Source: a bacterium
Lineage (GTDB): Bacteria > Vulcanimicrobiota > Xenobia > Xenobiales > JADMJV01
NCBI GenBank assembly: GCA_030149525.1
Contig: JASBRJ010000331.1
Location: 1 to 54,604 of the forward strand
Reading direction: 5' to 3'
Length of the DNA stretch: 54,604 nucleotides
Shown piece by piece: positions 4,773 to 34,855 of this stretch (its first letter is position 1; each line of letters starts with the position of its first letter). The translations under genes were made by a program, and so were the position numbers. The notes below the pieces were generated by a model. That model had not been told where the DNA came from. It searched no databases and was given only the letters and a program-made list of their open reading frames with translations.

Positions 4773-6746
4773 GTGCCGAAAGCGCCATTGCATCCGTATG
4801 AAAAAGAGCGTATCCAGTTTCTTCACCAGCTCAACATTTTGGATACCCCCGCGGAGCCGGCCCTTGACCGGATCGCCCAAAAGCTTGCCCAGAAGCTGAG
4901 CACTCCCATCGCCCTTATCAGTCTGGTGGACGAGGAGCGTCAGTGGTTCAAGTCTTGTTTGGGTTTGGATGTGAAGCAAACGCCACGAAATCAATCCTTT
5001 TGTGCCTTTACCATCCTTCACAAGGAGCCTCTTGTCATCGCCGACGCCACCAAAGATCCTAGGACCGCCGATAACGAGTTGGTCACAGGCCCTCCCGGAA
5101 TCCGGGCCTACGCCGGGTATCCTCTGGTGGTGGGAGGGATTCCCGTCGGTTCTCTCTGTGCCATCGACACTCGTCCTCGAGACTTCGCCGCCGAGGAGAT
5201 CGCCTATCTTGAACTGTTGGGGCAGTGGGCGGAGCGCGAGATTGAACTGAGGGACCGGTCCTATCTACTCCAAGAGAAGAATCATCATTTAGAGCGAGCG
5301 AGTCGACTCTTCACCAATGCGCCGGTGCCGCTCATGGTGTTGAGCAGTGACGGAACAGTTCTTGAGTCCAACCGCGCGGCTCAACAATTCTGGGAAGAGA
5401 CACTAGGGGATGTGGAAAACGTCGTTCAGGACCCTCGCCTTCCTGGGAGACGGATAGCCAAGGCTTTGCAAGAGGTCCTTCAGGGTAGACCTCCAGAACT
5501 CGATCCCCTGGAGATCGAAGGTAAAGACGGACCCGTCTTTGTCCGCTGTTCCCTGGAGTCCGGTCTGGAATGGGAGGGTGAACCTCGCGTTATCCTGGGT
5601 CTGGAAGACATCACGGAGTATCTCTGGGGGCTCGCGGGCCAGGCGGAGGCAGAGCAACTCGACGATGGTCAGGATGAGTTCATCTTTCGCCTCTGCCACG
5701 AGCTCAGAAATCCGGTCAACGGTATCGTGGGGATCATCGACCTTTGGAGAATGGGCTCCGAACGCAAAGCGTCCGATCTCGAGACCTTGGAGTCCTGCGC
5801 TCTCACCCTGAAAGGTTTGGTCGACGACACCCTGGACTTTAAGCGAATTGCGCAGGGCCGGGTCTCCATCGAGAAGCAAGAGTTCGATCTGAAAAAGTTT
5901 TTCCGTCAGGTGGTAGCCTCCACCCGCCGTGAGACCCAGAAGAAAAATCTCGATTTTCGATTCCGCATCCATCTAGACGACAATCATGGGATAAGCGATA
6001 AATTGCGTCTCAATCAGATTTTGTCGAACCTCCTCTCCAACGCCGTAAAATATACGGACGAGGGTCGCATTGAACTTCAGGTGGAGTTCAGGGAGGGACG
6101 GCTGAAAATGGTGGTCGCCGACACCGGTATGGGAATCTCGGAAGAGTTGAGGGATGTCCTCTTTGAGCCCTACACTCAGGCCAAAGCGAGAGATAAGGAC
6201 AGCAAAGCGGGTGTGGGTCTGGGCCTTTCCATCGTCAAGCAGTTGCTGGATCGCCTTGACGGGACGATTTCCTTGGACAGTCAAGTTGGTCAGGGGACAA
6301 CCTTCACGGTGGAAATGCCTGTGGAAGCTTCCACAGGAAGTAAGCTCAACGACTTGAGTCTTGAGATTCCCAAGCTAGAGATGACAATTCTTGTGGCCGA
6401 CGACAACCCGATCAATCGTTGCATCCTGTCGGCCCAGCTTTCAGGGATCGGTGCCAAGGTGTTGCTGGCAACCAACGGGCTGGAAGTTCTCGACATTCTC
6501 CAAAAGGAAGAGCCGGACGTTATCCTCTTGGACTGCCACATGCCGGAGTTGGACGGCTACGAAACGGTGGCCAGAATTCGAGCAGACGAGGAAACTTACG
6601 GCCGACCAATCGTGGTCGCTCTCACCGCGTCGGTTCGCGAAGATGCCGAGAAGAGATGCCGGGAAGCCGGAATGAATCACTTCCTGCAAAAACCGGTGCG
6701 GTTGCGCGAGTTGTCGTCGCTGCTCGGCGCGCTCAAATCACGCTAG
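4773..6746 (+). CDS. Hybrid sensor histidine kinase (GAF-PAS-HisKA-HATPase-REC)
   Basis: GTG 4773 is chosen because GGAG lies 7 bp upstream; TTG 4755 would add six residues. The product is 657 residues. Order of domains: GAF (about 18-160), PAS-like (about 185-285), dimerisation/phosphoacceptor with H-box CHELRNPV (His near 309), and HATPase_c with N-box LSNLLSNAVKY, G1 ADTGMG and G2 GVGLGLS. Last is a receiver domain from about 537 with acidic VADDN, phosphoacceptor in LLDCHMPELDG, and QKP lysine. No membrane segment or signal peptide is seen, so it should be cytoplasmic. The REC domain may act in a phosphorelay or autoinhibit the kinase. The stop overlaps the stop of the convergent antiporter gene by 4 bp. 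Confidence 0.92.
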   Translation: MPKAPLHPYEKERIQFLHQLNILDTPAEPALDRIAQKLAQKLSTPIALISLVDEERQWFKSCLGLDVKQTPRNQSFCAFTILHKEPLVIADATKDPRTADNELVTGPPGIRAYAGYPLVVGGIPVGSLCAIDTRPRDFAAEEIAYLELLGQWAEREIELRDRSYLLQEKNHHLERASRLFTNAPVPLMVLSSDGTVLESNRAAQQFWEETLGDVENVVQDPRLPGRRIAKALQEVLQGRPPELDPLEIEGKDGPVFVRCSLESGLEWEGEPRVILGLEDITEYLWGLAGQAEAEQLDDGQDEFIFRLCHELRNPVNGIVGIIDLWRMGSERKASDLETLESCALTLKGLVDDTLDFKRIAQGRVSIEKQEFDLKKFFRQVVASTRRETQKKNLDFRFRIHLDDNHGISDKLRLNQILSNLLSNAVKYTDEGRIELQVEFREGRLKMVVADTGMGISEELRDVLFEPYTQAKARDKDSKAGVGLGLSIVKQLLDRLDGTISLDSQVGQGTTFTVEMPVEASTGSKLNDLSLEIPKLEMTILVADDNPINRCILSAQLSGIGAKVLLATNGLEVLDILQKEEPDVILLDCHMPELDGYETVARIRADEETYGRPIVVALTASVREDAEKRCREAGMNHFLQKPVRLRELSSLLGALKSR

Positions 6747-8101
6747 ACCAGGACTTCTTCTCCCGCCAGAAGATCGTCTTCTTCGTCTTCCTCACGCTCC
6801 CCGATCTCTCCGGCCGCAGCCAGGCCGAATCGCATAATGACAGGACCAAAGACCTGATTGAGAGCAATGGCTGCTACGATGATGGTGCGCAGTTGATTGC
6901 CGATACTGGGAAAATCGTTGGAGACAAGAACGGCGAACCCGAGAGTCACTCCGGCCTGACCGAGAAAGCCGGTCCACGCGTATTTCACAACACTGCCGGA
7001 TTCTTTCGACAGCTTTGCCGCCGCCGAGGTGCCGAGCCAGGTGAAAAAGGCCCGTGCGGCCACCAGGATAGTGGCAACAAGTCCCACGACTTTGAGCGCC
7101 GGTAACTCCATCTGAGCACCGCCCAGGGTGAAGAAAATCACGTAAACGGGAAGGGAGTTTCTCTCCACGGCGTGGATGAAAGTGTGGCCATGAGGAGTGA
7201 AGTTCTCGACCACAAATCCTGCCATCATGCAGATAAGAAGACCGTGAAGGTGAAACGGCTCGGCCAGGTAGTCGGCTAGAAAAGCTACTCCCATAAGGAG
7301 TACTGGGAGTTCGGCTCCAATCTTGCCGATGTAGAGAGAGAGGAGGCCGCCCAGGACAACTCCTACCAAGAGAGAGCCTACGATCTCCCATCCCAGGTCC
7401 AGAGCGAAACCGAGATCCAGACCTTTTCCCGGAGTCATCATCGCTCGAGAGAAACTCATGGTGGCCGCAAAGCACGCGATCACCAGCATGTCTTTGATAA
7501 CGGTCACTCCCAAGGCAATTTCTGTCACCGGGCCTTCCGACTGTGTTTCATTGATGACAGCGATCGTTGTGGAGGGGGAGTTGGCCATGGCCGTGCAGGC
7601 CAGAAGGGAAGAAGCCACCATCAGTTGGGTCGGTGAGAAGTCCGACAAGCCGGGGAGTTGACCGCCCACGAAGTAGAGCAGACAGCCCACTCCCACGAAA
7701 GCTGAGAGAGACTGGATGAACGTGATGGAAAGAAGAGCTTTCCAGCGTGACTTGATGCTCTCTAGTTTGAGTTCGCCGCCGGCCGTAAAGGCGATGAGCC
7801 CGAGAGCCACATGATTTATCAATTCCAGTTCATGTATGGCGTTGTGGGAGAGAACGGCAAGAGACGGATCGATGAAAGCCAGAAAATAGGGTCCAAAGAA
7901 GACACCGGAAAGCATATAACCGGTGATCATGGGCATCTTTACTCGGGGGCAGAGGGTTCCAACCAGATAGGAGGCGATGAGGACAAAACCAAGGGCCATA
8001 GTGGTTTCCTCGGCCTTGCTATGGTGAGGACCGGCACCGAGTATCTGGGCTCCCAAAAGCAAGAAATAGGCGATAGAGACTTGAACGATTGTTGTGATCA
8101 C
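6743..8101 (-). CDS. CPA2-type cation:proton antiporter (distal gene of antiporter operon)
   Basis: This 452-residue polytopic protein has about 12 hydrophobic segments typical of the Na+/H+ exchanger (CPA2/KefB-like) fold, with repeats such as MITGYMLSGVFFGP. It begins with GTG overlapping the TGA of the upstream antiporter gene by 4 bp (GTGA), so translation is probably coupled. It ends in an acidic cytoplasmic tail (GEREEDEEDDLLAGEE) and has no RCK/TrkA-N domain. Ion control must therefore come from elsewhere, plausibly from the P-II-like/PilZ protein encoded first in the operon. Transported ion (Na+ or K+) cannot be told from sequence alone. Confidence 0.88.
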   Translation of the reverse strand: MITTIVQVSIAYFLLLGAQILGAGPHHSKAEETTMALGFVLIASYLVGTLCPRVKMPMITGYMLSGVFFGPYFLAFIDPSLAVLSHNAIHELELINHVALGLIAFTAGGELKLESIKSRWKALLSITFIQSLSAFVGVGCLLYFVGGQLPGLSDFSPTQLMVASSLLACTAMANSPSTTIAVINETQSEGPVTEIALGVTVIKDMLVIACFAATMSFSRAMMTPGKGLDLGFALDLGWEIVGSLLVGVVLGGLLSLYIGKIGAELPVLLMGVAFLADYLAEPFHLHGLLICMMAGFVVENFTPHGHTFIHAVERNSLPVYVIFFTLGGAQMELPALKVVGLVATILVAARAFFTWLGTSAAAKLSKESGSVVKYAWTGFLGQAGVTLGFAVLVSNDFPSIGNQLRTIIVAAIALNQVFGPVIMRFGLAAAGEIGEREEDEEDDLLAGEEVLV

Positions 8102-9285
8102 GCGTCACCCATTCGTTGCAGCATCTTAAGCTGAATCCAAGGTCCCACCATCTCATGGATGACCACGGCAGAGAGAACGACTCCCACAACCCAATCCACC
8201 AGATAGGCTCCAAAGGCCCATCGATAGCTGACCACCATGGCGATGGCGAGCCCACCCTGAGAGATGAGTCCCAAACCGGAGGTGACAGGTAGGGGCCAGT
8301 GGTTGGGAAGGCTTTGAACGGCCAGTGCCGTGCCCACGGTCTTGCCGATGAGTCTTGAGAGGACGTAGGCCAGGACCAGGGCAGGGAGGTTGGGGGTGAC
8401 GACCCAGAGGCACCCGCTCAGCAAGAGGAAGAGAACATAGAAGGCCCGTTCTCGGCGCACTAACCTCTGATAAATGGCCTCCGACCGGTCCGAGATGTTG
8501 ACCACCACCATCCCCGAGATGGCGCTCACGAAGAGCGGGGAAAGATGGAGGTACAGGCACAGTCCCGAGGACATTCCGATCACGCCGAAGACCATAAGGT
8601 CTCCTGCTGATTGGTCGAGGCTGCGAGCCTTCAATGTTCTTAAGAAAAAGCCAAAAATAACCCCCAGAAGAACCTGGAAGACAAACCAGAAAACGGGGTT
8701 GGTATAGTTGGCCTGGTGGAGACCTGGGCTAAAAGAGCACAGGACGCCAAGAGCCAGCAGGCCCGGAAAGTCGTCCAGGGTGGCGAAGAATCGCAGAGTT
8801 TCGAAGTTTGTGCCACGAACCAACCTCTCTCCTCCTAACATGAAAAGAGAGGCGGGTGCCGTGCCGGCTGCGGTTGCGGCCAAAAGGACGGCAGCTATGT
8901 AGGCTTCGGCCGTAGGGAGATGGAGATATTCTGAATCGAGGTAGAGGAAGGTGGCAAAAACAGCCGCGAAGGTGACAAGAGCTTGCAGCCAGGTGGCCAG
9001 GTACAATCGCAGGGGGAACTTGCGAAGAGTTCTGAACTCAAGGTTCGTGCCGAAAGTAAATCCCAACCAACCCAGACCGATGACGATGACCGGTCCGAGC
9101 TTGAGATAGGTCTCTTGATCGAGGATATCCAGTTCGTTGTAGCCGATACAGGCCCCCAGAAGAAGAAACAGGATTCCCGTTCTGGAGAAAAGGCGCAGTC
9201 CGGGGATTCGGCTTTTTCCTAAGACCTTGGCGGAACCGAGAAAAGAGACAAGCGCCAGTAAGGCGAGAAGCAGAATGGCTTTCAT
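8098..9285 (-). CDS. CPA2-type cation:proton antiporter (proximal gene)
   Basis: A 395-residue membrane protein starting at ATG 9285, 8 bp after the stop of the P-II-like/PilZ gene. It has about 12 hydrophobic stretches. The N-terminus starts directly with a transmembrane segment (MKAILLLALLALVSFLGSAK). GLGWLGFTFGTNLEF resembles the CPA2 helix region, and a later glycine-rich SGLGLISQGGLAIA segment resembles the discontinuous helix region of exchangers. No regulatory tail is visible. It is only distantly similar to the following antiporter, so the pair may be two separate transporters or halves of a heteromer. It is in the Na+/H+ exchanger superfamily rather than the NhaA type. Confidence 0.85.
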   Translation of the reverse strand: MKAILLLALLALVSFLGSAKVLGKSRIPGLRLFSRTGILFLLLGACIGYNELDILDQETYLKLGPVIVIGLGWLGFTFGTNLEFRTLRKFPLRLYLATWLQALVTFAAVFATFLYLDSEYLHLPTAEAYIAAVLLAATAAGTAPASLFMLGGERLVRGTNFETLRFFATLDDFPGLLALGVLCSFSPGLHQANYTNPVFWFVFQVLLGVIFGFFLRTLKARSLDQSAGDLMVFGVIGMSSGLCLYLHLSPLFVSAISGMVVVNISDRSEAIYQRLVRRERAFYVLFLLLSGCLWVVTPNLPALVLAYVLSRLIGKTVGTALAVQSLPNHWPLPVTSGLGLISQGGLAIAMVVSYRWAFGAYLVDWVVGVVLSAVVIHEMVGPWIQLKMLQRMGDA

Positions 9286-9293
9286 GAAAGTTG

Positions 9294-10508
9294 CTAGCTT
9301 CCGGCCGTGGTGGGACGCTTGACTAAATCGATGATGAGACTCCCCAAACGGTTCAGACGATTGGTTTCCAAAGCGTAGAAACGGATACTGTGAAGAAATT
9401 TATCTTCGGAAGGTCTCAGGTCGACCGTCATGCCTTCCAGGTATATCGCTTCATGGTTCTCGTGAGGCCCGAGAAGCAGGGCCACCTCGGTGCCGGGTGG
9501 CCAATCGACTTCCGATTCTATGAGGGCTCCCTGAACCCCGATGTCGAGAGCGACCGCCGGAACCGATTTTTCACCATCATACGTTTGCAAATCTGCGGGG
9601 ATTCTGGTCGCGATACGGCGGAGCTTTCGCCGTTGCACAAGGTGGTGGAGACTGTAACCCAGTTCTCGCAACAAATGGGCGATCCAGGAGGTGCTCAGTT
9701 TTTCGGGAGGTTCGTGATAGACCAGTCCACAGTGAAAGCCTCCCGCTACGGGTCGGCAAACCTCGACCTTGCAACGGATTCGCTCCTCCGACTCAAGAGA
9801 TTCTGGAGCGGTGATATCGACCACGCCGCTGAGTTCTTCCAAGCAGATTAAACCGAGGCCGAACAGACTGATGGAATGCAGCCTGGCGGGTAAAGCGTCG
9901 GCCGAGTTGGGCAGAACTGTGACCTGATAGTCACAGTCCACTCGTGGGGCGCGCCGTCTCTCTTTGAAGGCGTCCTCTTTTTGCAGCGGTTCCACGATGG
10001 ACTTCAGGCCGCTTGCCAACTTGGAGAGTAACCCGGGGGCTGGGAGATCGGCTCTCTTTAACGCCGCCAGCATGGCTCGCTCGAAGGTGGACTGACAGAT
10101 GTCCTCAGCTCCTAGGTCGGGAGCTGCGGAGCTGAGCGGTGTTTCACCGGCTCGCCTCACTTGAGGCCCGTTGGGGTGAAAGTTTACGAACTTGTCGACC
10201 GGGACCGTGAAGGCTATGCCGTGGGTCCCAGGATGTGTCCCGGGAAGCAGGTGATCTTCGATAGCTTTCATGGTCCGGTCGGCTAACGCGTCGTCTTCTA
10301 CCACGGAAAACACCGTATAATTGAAGCTACGCCCCTGGGTCACCAGATGGCGCAACCCTGCTATGACCGGGGCTTCACGAGAGAATTTATCTGTTCCTTG
10401 ACTCTCGATGACGGTGGCACCGGAAATACCCAGTTCCGCCATAGCCTGCAGCAGGTCGTTGAGACGCTTCGTTTCATTGAGAACACACACCAGCAATTTC
10501 ACAGCCAC
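9294..10508 (-). CDS. P-II-like signalling domain fused to two PilZ domains
   Basis: A GTG start at 10508 gives 404 residues. Residues 1-105 (MAVKLLVCVLNETKRLNDLL onward) match the P-II-like fold in beta-alpha-beta pattern, including the late V-P-V-D core strand. A linker follows, then two PilZ domains. The first has RRAPR with SISLFGLG, lacking the canonical Asp. The second has RKLRR/RRIATR with DIGVQGALI, close to the D-x-S/G-x-x-G c-di-GMP signature. P-II-like proteins bind adenine nucleotides and control transporters; PilZ domains bind c-di-GMP. As first gene of an operon with two antiporters, this protein is the likely regulator. No membrane segments are seen. The start lacks a clear Shine-Dalgarno. 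Confidence 0.8.
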   Translation of the reverse strand: MAVKLLVCVLNETKRLNDLLQAMAELGISGATVIESQGTDKFSREAPVIAGLRHLVTQGRSFNYTVFSVVEDDALADRTMKAIEDHLLPGTHPGTHGIAFTVPVDKFVNFHPNGPQVRRAGETPLSSAAPDLGAEDICQSTFERAMLAALKRADLPAPGLLSKLASGLKSIVEPLQKEDAFKERRRAPRVDCDYQVTVLPNSADALPARLHSISLFGLGLICLEELSGVVDITAPESLESEERIRCKVEVCRPVAGGFHCGLVYHEPPEKLSTSWIAHLLRELGYSLHHLVQRRKLRRIATRIPADLQTYDGEKSVPAVALDIGVQGALIESEVDWPPGTEVALLLGPHENHEAIYLEGMTVDLRPSEDKFLHSIRFYALETNRLNRLGSLIIDLVKRPTTAGS

Positions 10509-32555: not shown

Positions 32556-34772
32556 TCAATCAGAGGTTTCTCTTAAGGTGTCTTTGAGACTTTTTCCCAT
32601 TCTCACCCGAGTACCGGGGTTGGAAGCAAAAAATGTCTTCATATCGGCGGCTGAAACTTTAAACACATGAAGGTCGGTGAGAGCCTGGGCTTCTGAATGA
32701 TGATGAGTAGACTTCAATGAAGTCCCGAAGGCCCCCACGAAGGAGCCTGGTCCGAGTGTGGCTTCTCGGTCTCCGTTTCGGACTCTGACCTCACCGGAGT
32801 CTATCAGGTAATACCAGGAGATCGGTTCTCTCTCTCGGTAGAGAAAAGCTCCACGCGAGAGGGTGTCTTCCACCATCCAACACATGAGTTGGTTCTTCTG
32901 CAGAGGCGAGAGGGCCGCCAGAATACGGTGCTTTTCGAAGGTCTTTCGAGCCCCCCCGGACCGGTTCTTGTCCAGCCGTTTGAAAAGTTCCGGAAGAGGC
33001 GTGCCGCTGATGAATCTTAAAAAATCTTCCTTCTCAATATATAAAACCTCAGTCCGGGTGCGGGCCACGATATCGGCGTTTCGAGGCTGGTTGAGAATGA
33101 GGGCTGTTTCTCCGATATAGTCGTATCTTGTGAAGAAAAGTCGGCGGGGAAGATCTTCATGAACCACCTCCACTTCGCCTGAGAGGATCATATAGAAGCG
33201 GTCACCGTAGGTTCCGCGCTCGATGAATCGCTCTCCCTCCTTGAGAATCTTGTGATGAGTGATGGAGAGCGCTTCCTGAGCTTTGCGGACGTTCATTTCA
33301 GAAAAAAGATCGATATGACAGATGACATCGAGAATCTTGCTGGCAAGACTTTTCTGAGGGGTGGGGACGGGAATTTCAATCGTGTTGTCGGCACCGGGGG
33401 GAGCAATCACTAACTGGCTTTCTTCCGGTATGGCGCTCTCCGACACATGTACGAGATACATGCGCTTTTTGATCTCCAAGGGCAGGTCTGCCAGAAGCGA
33501 TAAGGGGGTGTGAATGGGAGGGATTCCGGCTTCATGAAAAATGAGAGAACTTTCCCACGGAACATTCAGGAGATCGTACATCCGACTCTTGGAGAGAATA
33601 CCCTGTTCATGCAAACTCCGAATGGTTTCCGGCTCGTAGAGGGTGTCGCACGAGTAGTAGAACGACTTGCCTTCGAATTCCACTTCAAATCCCACTGTGG
33701 GAATCGGATGAAGCGTGTAGCGGAAAGAGAATCTGGCTCCCGCGATGGTGCAGCGAGTGCCGACGGTGAGCGGGACAAACTCGAAAAGCGTCCGGAACTC
33801 CGAAGCTTTGAGTTGGGTCAGAGCGCTATATTTGGCCACGAAACTTCGCATCACCGTCTCGGTGGCGTGGATGCGGATGCGTCCTTCTTCCAGAACTTTC
33901 TGCAAGGTACCGGAGTCATGATCGGCGTGGCAGTGAGTGAGGATCAGATCTTCAATCAAACGAGGATTGATGCGGTTCTCCCTGAGCCATTCCGTCGAGT
34001 TGACGGGGGGATCAACCAGAATACCTTTGCCGTCCACCCAGATAATGAAGCCTGAAGTCTTGGACTCAGTATCGAACCCGTGACCGCTCCCAATTGTCGT
34101 GACGCCGAAGAGGGGAGGGGCGTAGAAGCAGCCGTGGGTGCCTCCACCGTCATCGGTCCCCACTTCCACCTGGGCTTCTCGGGTGGGATGAAAATTACAA
34201 CTTTGGGGCGGCGAATCTCCTCTTTGAACCTCATATCGGTTACCGCCCAGACGTCGGATCGTCACTCCGTCGACCTCGACCTGGTCCTTGTGATCAAACA
34301 CATGGAGTTCGATCATGTGTTTCAGACGGAGGCGACCTCCGGGGAGTTTCGGATCTTTCTTGTAAAAGAGCATCTCTTTGGCCAGATCGGGATATCCGGG
34401 ACTCTGGGGACCATCCGGATACTCTCGCTCCGTATAGACTTTGAAAGGACCGAAGATGGCTTCCCGAAGAACGCGAAGGATAGGACGAACCTGGTCTTTG
34501 CGACAGATGAAACGGCACTTTTGGCCTCGGATATAGAAATTGAAGTAAAGGGGAAACTCCAAGTCGGAGTTGCTGATGCCCCGATAGGTGTCGAAAAGGT
34601 CGTCGGGCAGTAAAAAAAGATCGGGAACGCCTGCTTCCAGCTTCATGGTGTCCTTGATGGTCTCCGGGTAGGAGCCGATCTGAAGTCGAAACTCTTCCCC
34701 TTCGACTAAAGTTCCACCGCGGGGGAGTTCGCTGACTCCGAAGTGAGGTTTTCCCTCCGTCTCTGTCTGCAT
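32556..34772 (-). CDS. MBL-fold metallo-hydrolase fused to two cyclic nucleotide-binding domains
   Basis: ATG 34772 has GGAGG 6 bp upstream, making it clearly better than two upstream ATGs. The 738-residue protein has an N-terminal region of unknown fold (to about 230) and a beta-lactamase-like domain with LTHCHADHDSGTL (HxHxDH, near 277-283). YYSCDTLYEP provides the second metal region. Two CRP-like domains end the protein, the first near 508-575 with ERGTYGDRFYMILSGEVEV and GETALILNQPRNADIV. The Arg-Asn-Ala-Asp of its phosphate-binding cassette is intact. The second (about 625-718) is degenerate. It may be a hydrolase switched by cAMP/cGMP. No membrane segment. Divergent from a GT2 gene. 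Confidence 0.85.
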   Translation of the reverse strand: MQTETEGKPHFGVSELPRGGTLVEGEEFRLQIGSYPETIKDTMKLEAGVPDLFLLPDDLFDTYRGISNSDLEFPLYFNFYIRGQKCRFICRKDQVRPILRVLREAIFGPFKVYTEREYPDGPQSPGYPDLAKEMLFYKKDPKLPGGRLRLKHMIELHVFDHKDQVEVDGVTIRRLGGNRYEVQRGDSPPQSCNFHPTREAQVEVGTDDGGGTHGCFYAPPLFGVTTIGSGHGFDTESKTSGFIIWVDGKGILVDPPVNSTEWLRENRINPRLIEDLILTHCHADHDSGTLQKVLEEGRIRIHATETVMRSFVAKYSALTQLKASEFRTLFEFVPLTVGTRCTIAGARFSFRYTLHPIPTVGFEVEFEGKSFYYSCDTLYEPETIRSLHEQGILSKSRMYDLLNVPWESSLIFHEAGIPPIHTPLSLLADLPLEIKKRMYLVHVSESAIPEESQLVIAPPGADNTIEIPVPTPQKSLASKILDVICHIDLFSEMNVRKAQEALSITHHKILKEGERFIERGTYGDRFYMILSGEVEVVHEDLPRRLFFTRYDYIGETALILNQPRNADIVARTRTEVLYIEKEDFLRFISGTPLPELFKRLDKNRSGGARKTFEKHRILAALSPLQKNQLMCWMVEDTLSRGAFLYREREPISWYYLIDSGEVRVRNGDREATLGPGSFVGAFGTSLKSTHHHSEAQALTDLHVFKVSAADMKTFFASNPGTRVRMGKSLKDTLRETSD

Positions 34773-34855
34773 GAAAGTCCTCCGAAAAAAGCTCATTCCG
34801 CGACGCGATGCCAACTCCTGGAGGGGAGGTGGTGAGAAGTCCAAAGGAATCGTCC

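Follow-up and report, generated by a model that had tools for sequence, protein, structure and literature searches.

The three genes described here are best explained overall as one regulated ion-antiport unit with a PII-like-PilZ regulator, and we consider this reading reasonably probable. In the window (the whole stretch of 54,604 nucleotides that was analysed), the gene for the regulator is followed by two genes for CPA2 antiporters, here called CPA2a and CPA2b (Table 1). The trio is a real, conserved module, of which the fused PilZ variant is the only local novelty. The sequence-only reading had placed the three genes on one strand with spacings of 8 and -4 bp, and the open reading frames agree with this exactly and lie on the minus strand: the first and second genes are separated by 8 bp, and the second and third share a 4-bp ATGA overlap. 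The likelier start of the regulator is the second GTG at 10502, as MKLLV is where the family aligns. A promoter scan returned nothing exceeding chance. Elsewhere in the window (32556-34844), a 762-aa ORF combines a metallo-beta-lactamase-fold domain with two cyclic-nucleotide-binding domains.

Table 1. Features of the regulator-antiporter locus, in window coordinates.
Feature	Position	Strand	Extent	Basis
Fused regulator gene (P0001)	9294-10508	minus	404 aa; PII-like, helical linker, PilZ, PilZ	ORF, Pfam, alignment
CPA2a gene (P0002)	8098-9285	minus	395 aa	BLASTP, hhalign, active-site columns
CPA2b gene (P0003)	6743-8101	minus	452 aa	Pfam Na_H_Exchanger, clade of second CPA2 genes
PII-like domain	10188-10508	minus	residues 1-107	Pfam P-II, predicted fold, Foldseek
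T-loop			about residues 38-62 of the PII-like domain	motif positions
B-loop LPGTHPGTHG	10218-10247	minus	residues 88-97	
Linker	9972-10187	minus	residues 108-179 (boundary inferred)	predicted low-confidence helices (low pLDDT)
PilZ1	9660-9971	minus	residues about 180-283	Pfam second stretch, alignment to 37 tandem-PilZ relatives
PilZ2	9333-9638	minus	residues about 291-392	Pfam 292-392

According to its predicted structure, the N-terminal domain of the regulator folds as PII. The Pfam P-II family (PF00543) matches residues 7-108 with E=1e-4 and 23.0 bits, against a cut-off of 25, and the same stretch reaches 25.6 bits, above this cut-off, in the scan of the whole genome. In the model of residues 1-105, pLDDT is mostly 76-92 and falls to about 45-50 at the tip of the T-loop; the full-length model is poor outside the PII-like domain. 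Alignment of the N-terminal domain to P-II-like folds had been named as a check, and Foldseek matched the model of residues 1-105 with probability 1.00 to solved PII, GlnK and SbtB chains. The fold alignments to SbtB chains have 13-19% identity with the window domain, and identity with members of its own family is up to 42%. Pfam matches and fold thus agree with the proposed composition of the first gene, a P-II-like domain and two PilZ domains. Judged by its motifs, the PII-like protein is not GlnB, because both the uridylylation-site motif Y[KR]G[AS][AE]Y and the canonical PII ATP-loop/B-loop motif GDGK are absent from P0001, from P0004 and from all 93 family sequences. The B-loop in the window is one residue longer, and the G-R of the conserved GMGR is replaced by D-K. 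A separate GlnB-type protein is encoded in the same genome.

The two antiporters were assigned by different routes. CPA2b has a match to PF00999 (Na_H_Exchanger, E=1.6e-25), lies within a clade of 17 second CPA2 genes with 100/100 support, and finds CPA2b genes as its best matches, at about 218-298 bits. CPA2a has no Pfam match of its own; BLASTP matches it to a CPA2 antiporter, and the profile of its family aligns with the CPA2 profile over the full length (383 columns, hhalign probability 100, E=2.5e-43). CPA2a matches best to the first CPA2 genes of pairs from another phylum (150 bits to the CPA2a of locus L156), and its assignment is based on match scores and gene position, since long branches make its placement in the tree unsafe. 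Neither the CPA2a profile nor P0003 matched the PDB by sequence, and the predicted structure of P0002 was set aside (mean pLDDT 38). In agreement with the claim that the antiporters have no regulatory RCK tail, TrkA_N and TrkA_C (RCK) gave no Pfam match in either of them, nor in the regulator.

In the single CPA2 family, the D-D column aligns with the D-D of NapA, and the CPA2a profile places residues D171-D172 there. The conserved catalytic Asp of CPA2 is thus present in both window proteins, as D171-D172 (8770-8775) in CPA2a and as K203-D204 (7490-7495) in CPA2b, which also has an acidic C-terminal tail. All 17 CPA2b relatives keep the second catalytic Asp (K-D in 13, M-D in 4). Of the 17 CPA2a relatives, one has D-D, four have D-G and twelve are without Asp, although these sequences are very divergent, which makes the residue at the catalytic column less certain for those that have decayed most. 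The second Asp, retained by CPA2a in the window, is hence lost in 16 of the 17. On this sequence evidence, CPA2a and CPA2b are a fixed, unequal pair. Because CPA2b always keeps the second Asp and CPA2a has mostly lost it, the simplest reading, as the sequences suggest, is a CPA2a/CPA2b heterodimer in which CPA2a is mostly without catalysis. The pair in the window would then represent an early stage of this heterodimer or a partly active one. It is also conceivable, but rather unlikely, that each of the two proteins forms a homodimeric antiporter of its own, with a different role (for example for different ions or pH ranges), under one shared PII-like-PilZ regulator. The D-D of CPA2a in the window would allow it to catalyse alone, even as an active homodimer, and PII-like genes often have a single CPA2 gene beside them, mostly with D-D. 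For an independent transporter, however, it would be odd to lack the second Asp in nearly all relatives and yet to stand next to CPA2b.

The C-terminal half of the regulator matches PilZ (PF07238, E=1.1e-12) in two stretches, and by sequence it is a member of a tandem-PilZ family that is abundant in this lineage. This genome and its relatives have many tandem PilZ proteins, and the best relatives of the PilZ half come from the same order. At loci L002, L010, L025 and L033, long, acidic, low-complexity proteins of the lineage have a tandem PilZ pair at their C-terminus. A search of the PilZ part against the PDB by sequence gave no match at E<=1. PilZ domains are usual c-di-GMP receptors. In PilZ1, the RxxxR motif is retained (RRAPR, 185-189), and [DN]xSxxG is changed to SISLFG (212-217), with loss of the D/N. 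PilZ2 has RKLRR (294-298) and DIGVQG (322-327), as in most paralogues of the lineage. These departures would fit a PilZ pair that does not bind c-di-GMP and acts as a structural or docking module, leaving the PII-like domain as the sole sensor, since the second motif has lost its D/N in PilZ1 and carries G for S in PilZ2. We consider this rather improbable: neither RxxxR motif has been lost, and in the paralogue family (37 tandem-PilZ relatives aligned) the second motif of PilZ2 most often reads [DN]xGxxG, so that PilZ2 may still bind the ligand.

Relatives of the PII-like domain were surveyed from a Subdoligranulum plasmid relative and a scan of genome contigs, with an alignment of the domain as the query. 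At the set cut-offs, they were found in 52 of 393 genomes from the phylum of a Spirochaetes locus, in 76 of 398 from a second phylum (Clostridia locus) and in 27 of 396 from a third (Aminicenantes locus). In the phylum of the window, this genome alone gave a strong match. An antiporter gene lies within 1.5 kb at 81 of 93 PII-like places (CPA2 at 54, Mrp at 26, NhaB at 1); these 93 are mostly the best-scoring places per search, and the proportions describe them rather than every relative. One of the other 12 is beside a DUF1538-like permease gene and 11 are without any, 10 of those having a PTS-EIIA gene. Among 20 lower-scoring places, CPA2 was recognized at 12 by script and at one more (L183) by reading. 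By comparison, an antiporter was found at none of 35 control loci around tandem-PilZ genes. Of the fused sensor that had been proposed to control antiport, it is the dedicated PII-like antiport regulator that the comparison strongly supports, by the fold and by these neighbourhoods.

The plasmid relative, the only one that plasmids yielded, is a stand-alone PII-like gene 35 bp upstream of an RCK-less CPA2 gene (Subdoligranulum variabile, L040:4001-5547). In Spirochaetes and Aerophobetes (L047, L048, L049 and L050), PII-like genes head Mrp-type operons with PTS-EIIA and MrpE-F-G. In the phylum of the window, a PII-like gene is directly downstream of a gene that was typed as NhaB by reading (L054:1480-3152). 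At L055:1495-3253, a permease gene, typed by reading as DUF1538-like, precedes the gene of a protein that has two PII-like domains, and a ClC channel gene accompanies EIIA and PII-like genes at L174:3-3547, a stretch in which no cation antiporter was found.

The neighbourhoods are indirect evidence, and they could reflect shared transcription only, if the regulator acted on expression, folding or something else. The 10 places of the 93 with EIIA only and no recognized antiporter within 1.5 kb would be consistent with this. We nevertheless judge it to be improbable, as the antiporter families differ between phyla (CPA2, Mrp, NhaB) and gene order varies, which is the pattern known from SbtB and GlnK. 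A broader proposal, for which we would put the chances at slightly below even, is that the PII-like clade is, across phyla, a general regulator of cation/proton antiporters of the CPA2, Mrp and NhaB types with an exchangeable second input (PTS-EIIA or, in the window, tandem PilZ), one branch having a heterodimeric CPA2 with a catalytically dead subunit.

Conservation of the gene trio outside this genome had been proposed as a check, and the trio without PilZ does recur in another phylum. The operon EIIA, PII-like, CPA2a, CPA2b is found in the third phylum (L149-L155, L157-L159), and four more genomes have the order CPA2a, CPA2b, EIIA, PII-like (L169-L172); in L159 and L173, the gene in the place of CPA2a was unrecognized by the script and was assigned by position. 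Genome G1319 has the window arrangement, PII-like, CPA2a, CPA2b, without PilZ and without EIIA. A search for the domain order of P-II-like and two PilZ domains beside CPA2 genes had also been proposed, and among the genomes searched the PilZ fusion is found in this one only. Likewise, the first scan of genome contigs gave no full-length relative of the fusion, and among relatives only the PilZ half was matched. EIIA-PII-like fusions in a single protein adjoin CPA2 genes in L061, L090 and L091, which shows the fusion of a second domain to be a recurrent solution.

In the reading that we prefer, one regulated antiport unit, the product of the first gene would be a soluble regulator of the antiporter, which is probably a heterodimer of CPA2a and CPA2b that performs Na+/H+ or K+/H+ exchange. 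Through its T-loop, the PII-like domain, which is probably trimeric, would bind to the antiporter on its cytoplasmic side. By analogy with SbtB-SbtA and GlnK-AmtB, the bound nucleotide would decide whether the domain opens or blocks the antiporter. Many relatives probably receive a second input from a PTS-EIIA that can be phosphorylated, either separate or fused. The trio in the window has no EIIA gene next to it, and the tandem PilZ, fused at the C-terminus, stands as the second domain, so that c-di-GMP is the likely second input. There is one precedent for a link between PII and c-di-GMP signalling, in Azospirillum, by a different route (PMC7646526). Several observations count against the preferred reading: the absence of GDGK from the PII-like family, the lengthened B-loop and the D-K of the window, the lost D/N of PilZ1, the D-D of CPA2a, and the occurrence of the PilZ fusion in a single genome.

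With regard to the origin of the locus, the closest relatives of the antiporters were found in another phylum, and therefore transfer was probably the source of the module, whose fusion to a native PilZ pair would have followed, as read from the sequences of one draft genome. GC and GC3 of all three genes, and of both halves of P0001, match those of the flanking genes. That the fusion is an assembly or binning artefact, either a foreign operon or a chimeric ORF, is very improbable: about 147 genomes of this phylum, apart from the window's own, gave no close relative of the trio, and the genome is a draft of 398 contigs with 4.5% estimated contamination, but the ORF is open across the PII-like/PilZ junction, the composition of both halves and of the antiporters is that of their surroundings, and a foreign contig would not explain why the PilZ half has its best relatives in the same order.

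The earlier statement that no system of exactly this form was known agrees with a limited search of titles and abstracts in the open-access literature, which found no description of a PII-like protein with an antiporter, of PilZ with an antiporter, or of a heterodimeric CPA2. If the proposal is true, PII-type control would reach beyond ammonium channels and a bicarbonate transporter, where it is known, to sodium/potassium-proton antiporters of several phyla, and PTS phosphorylation or c-di-GMP would supply a second input. One protein could then link two internal signals to ion balance. In the paired CPA2 genes, an antiporter would have evolved from a homodimer to a heterodimer with a degenerate subunit, and as the intermediates (D-D, D-G, N-N and none) persist in living genomes, this evolution would be directly testable.

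Among known systems, SbtB is a cyanobacterial PII-like regulator that is encoded with the bicarbonate transporter SbtA. The window protein resembles it in that a small PII-like protein is linked by its gene to a transporter, and SbtB is among the fold matches of the window domain; in contrast, SbtA is not an antiporter, and SbtB has no PilZ. GlnK is a PII protein that controls the ammonium channel AmtB. It shares the PII fold, and its T-loop docking to gate a partner is the working model for the window protein, whereas the window clade is without the uridylylation-site and GDGK motifs and adjoins cation/proton antiporters. Signalling by c-di-AMP bears on K+ homeostasis, and PstA/DarA are c-di-AMP-binding proteins of the PII-like type, for which we know of no dedicated antiporter partner gene. 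Unlike the window domain, PstA/DarA have loop lengths that are reversed relative to PII (PMC6516651). Borrelia BB0017 was considered as a counterpart and dropped, being a different PII-like protein with a membrane domain (PMC6516651). The RCK-regulated systems KefC/KefF, KhtT/KhtU and CpaA are similar in combining a CPA2 antiporter with a cytoplasmic ligand-binding regulator, but the window antiporters are without RCK and the regulator is PII-like and PilZ. Finally, the PII-partnered CPA2 family has its closest relative of solved structure in NapA of Thermus thermophilus (4bwz/5bz2). Both subunits of the NapA homodimer have D-D, whereas in the window D-D and K-D are found in different subunits, together with a gene for a dedicated regulator.
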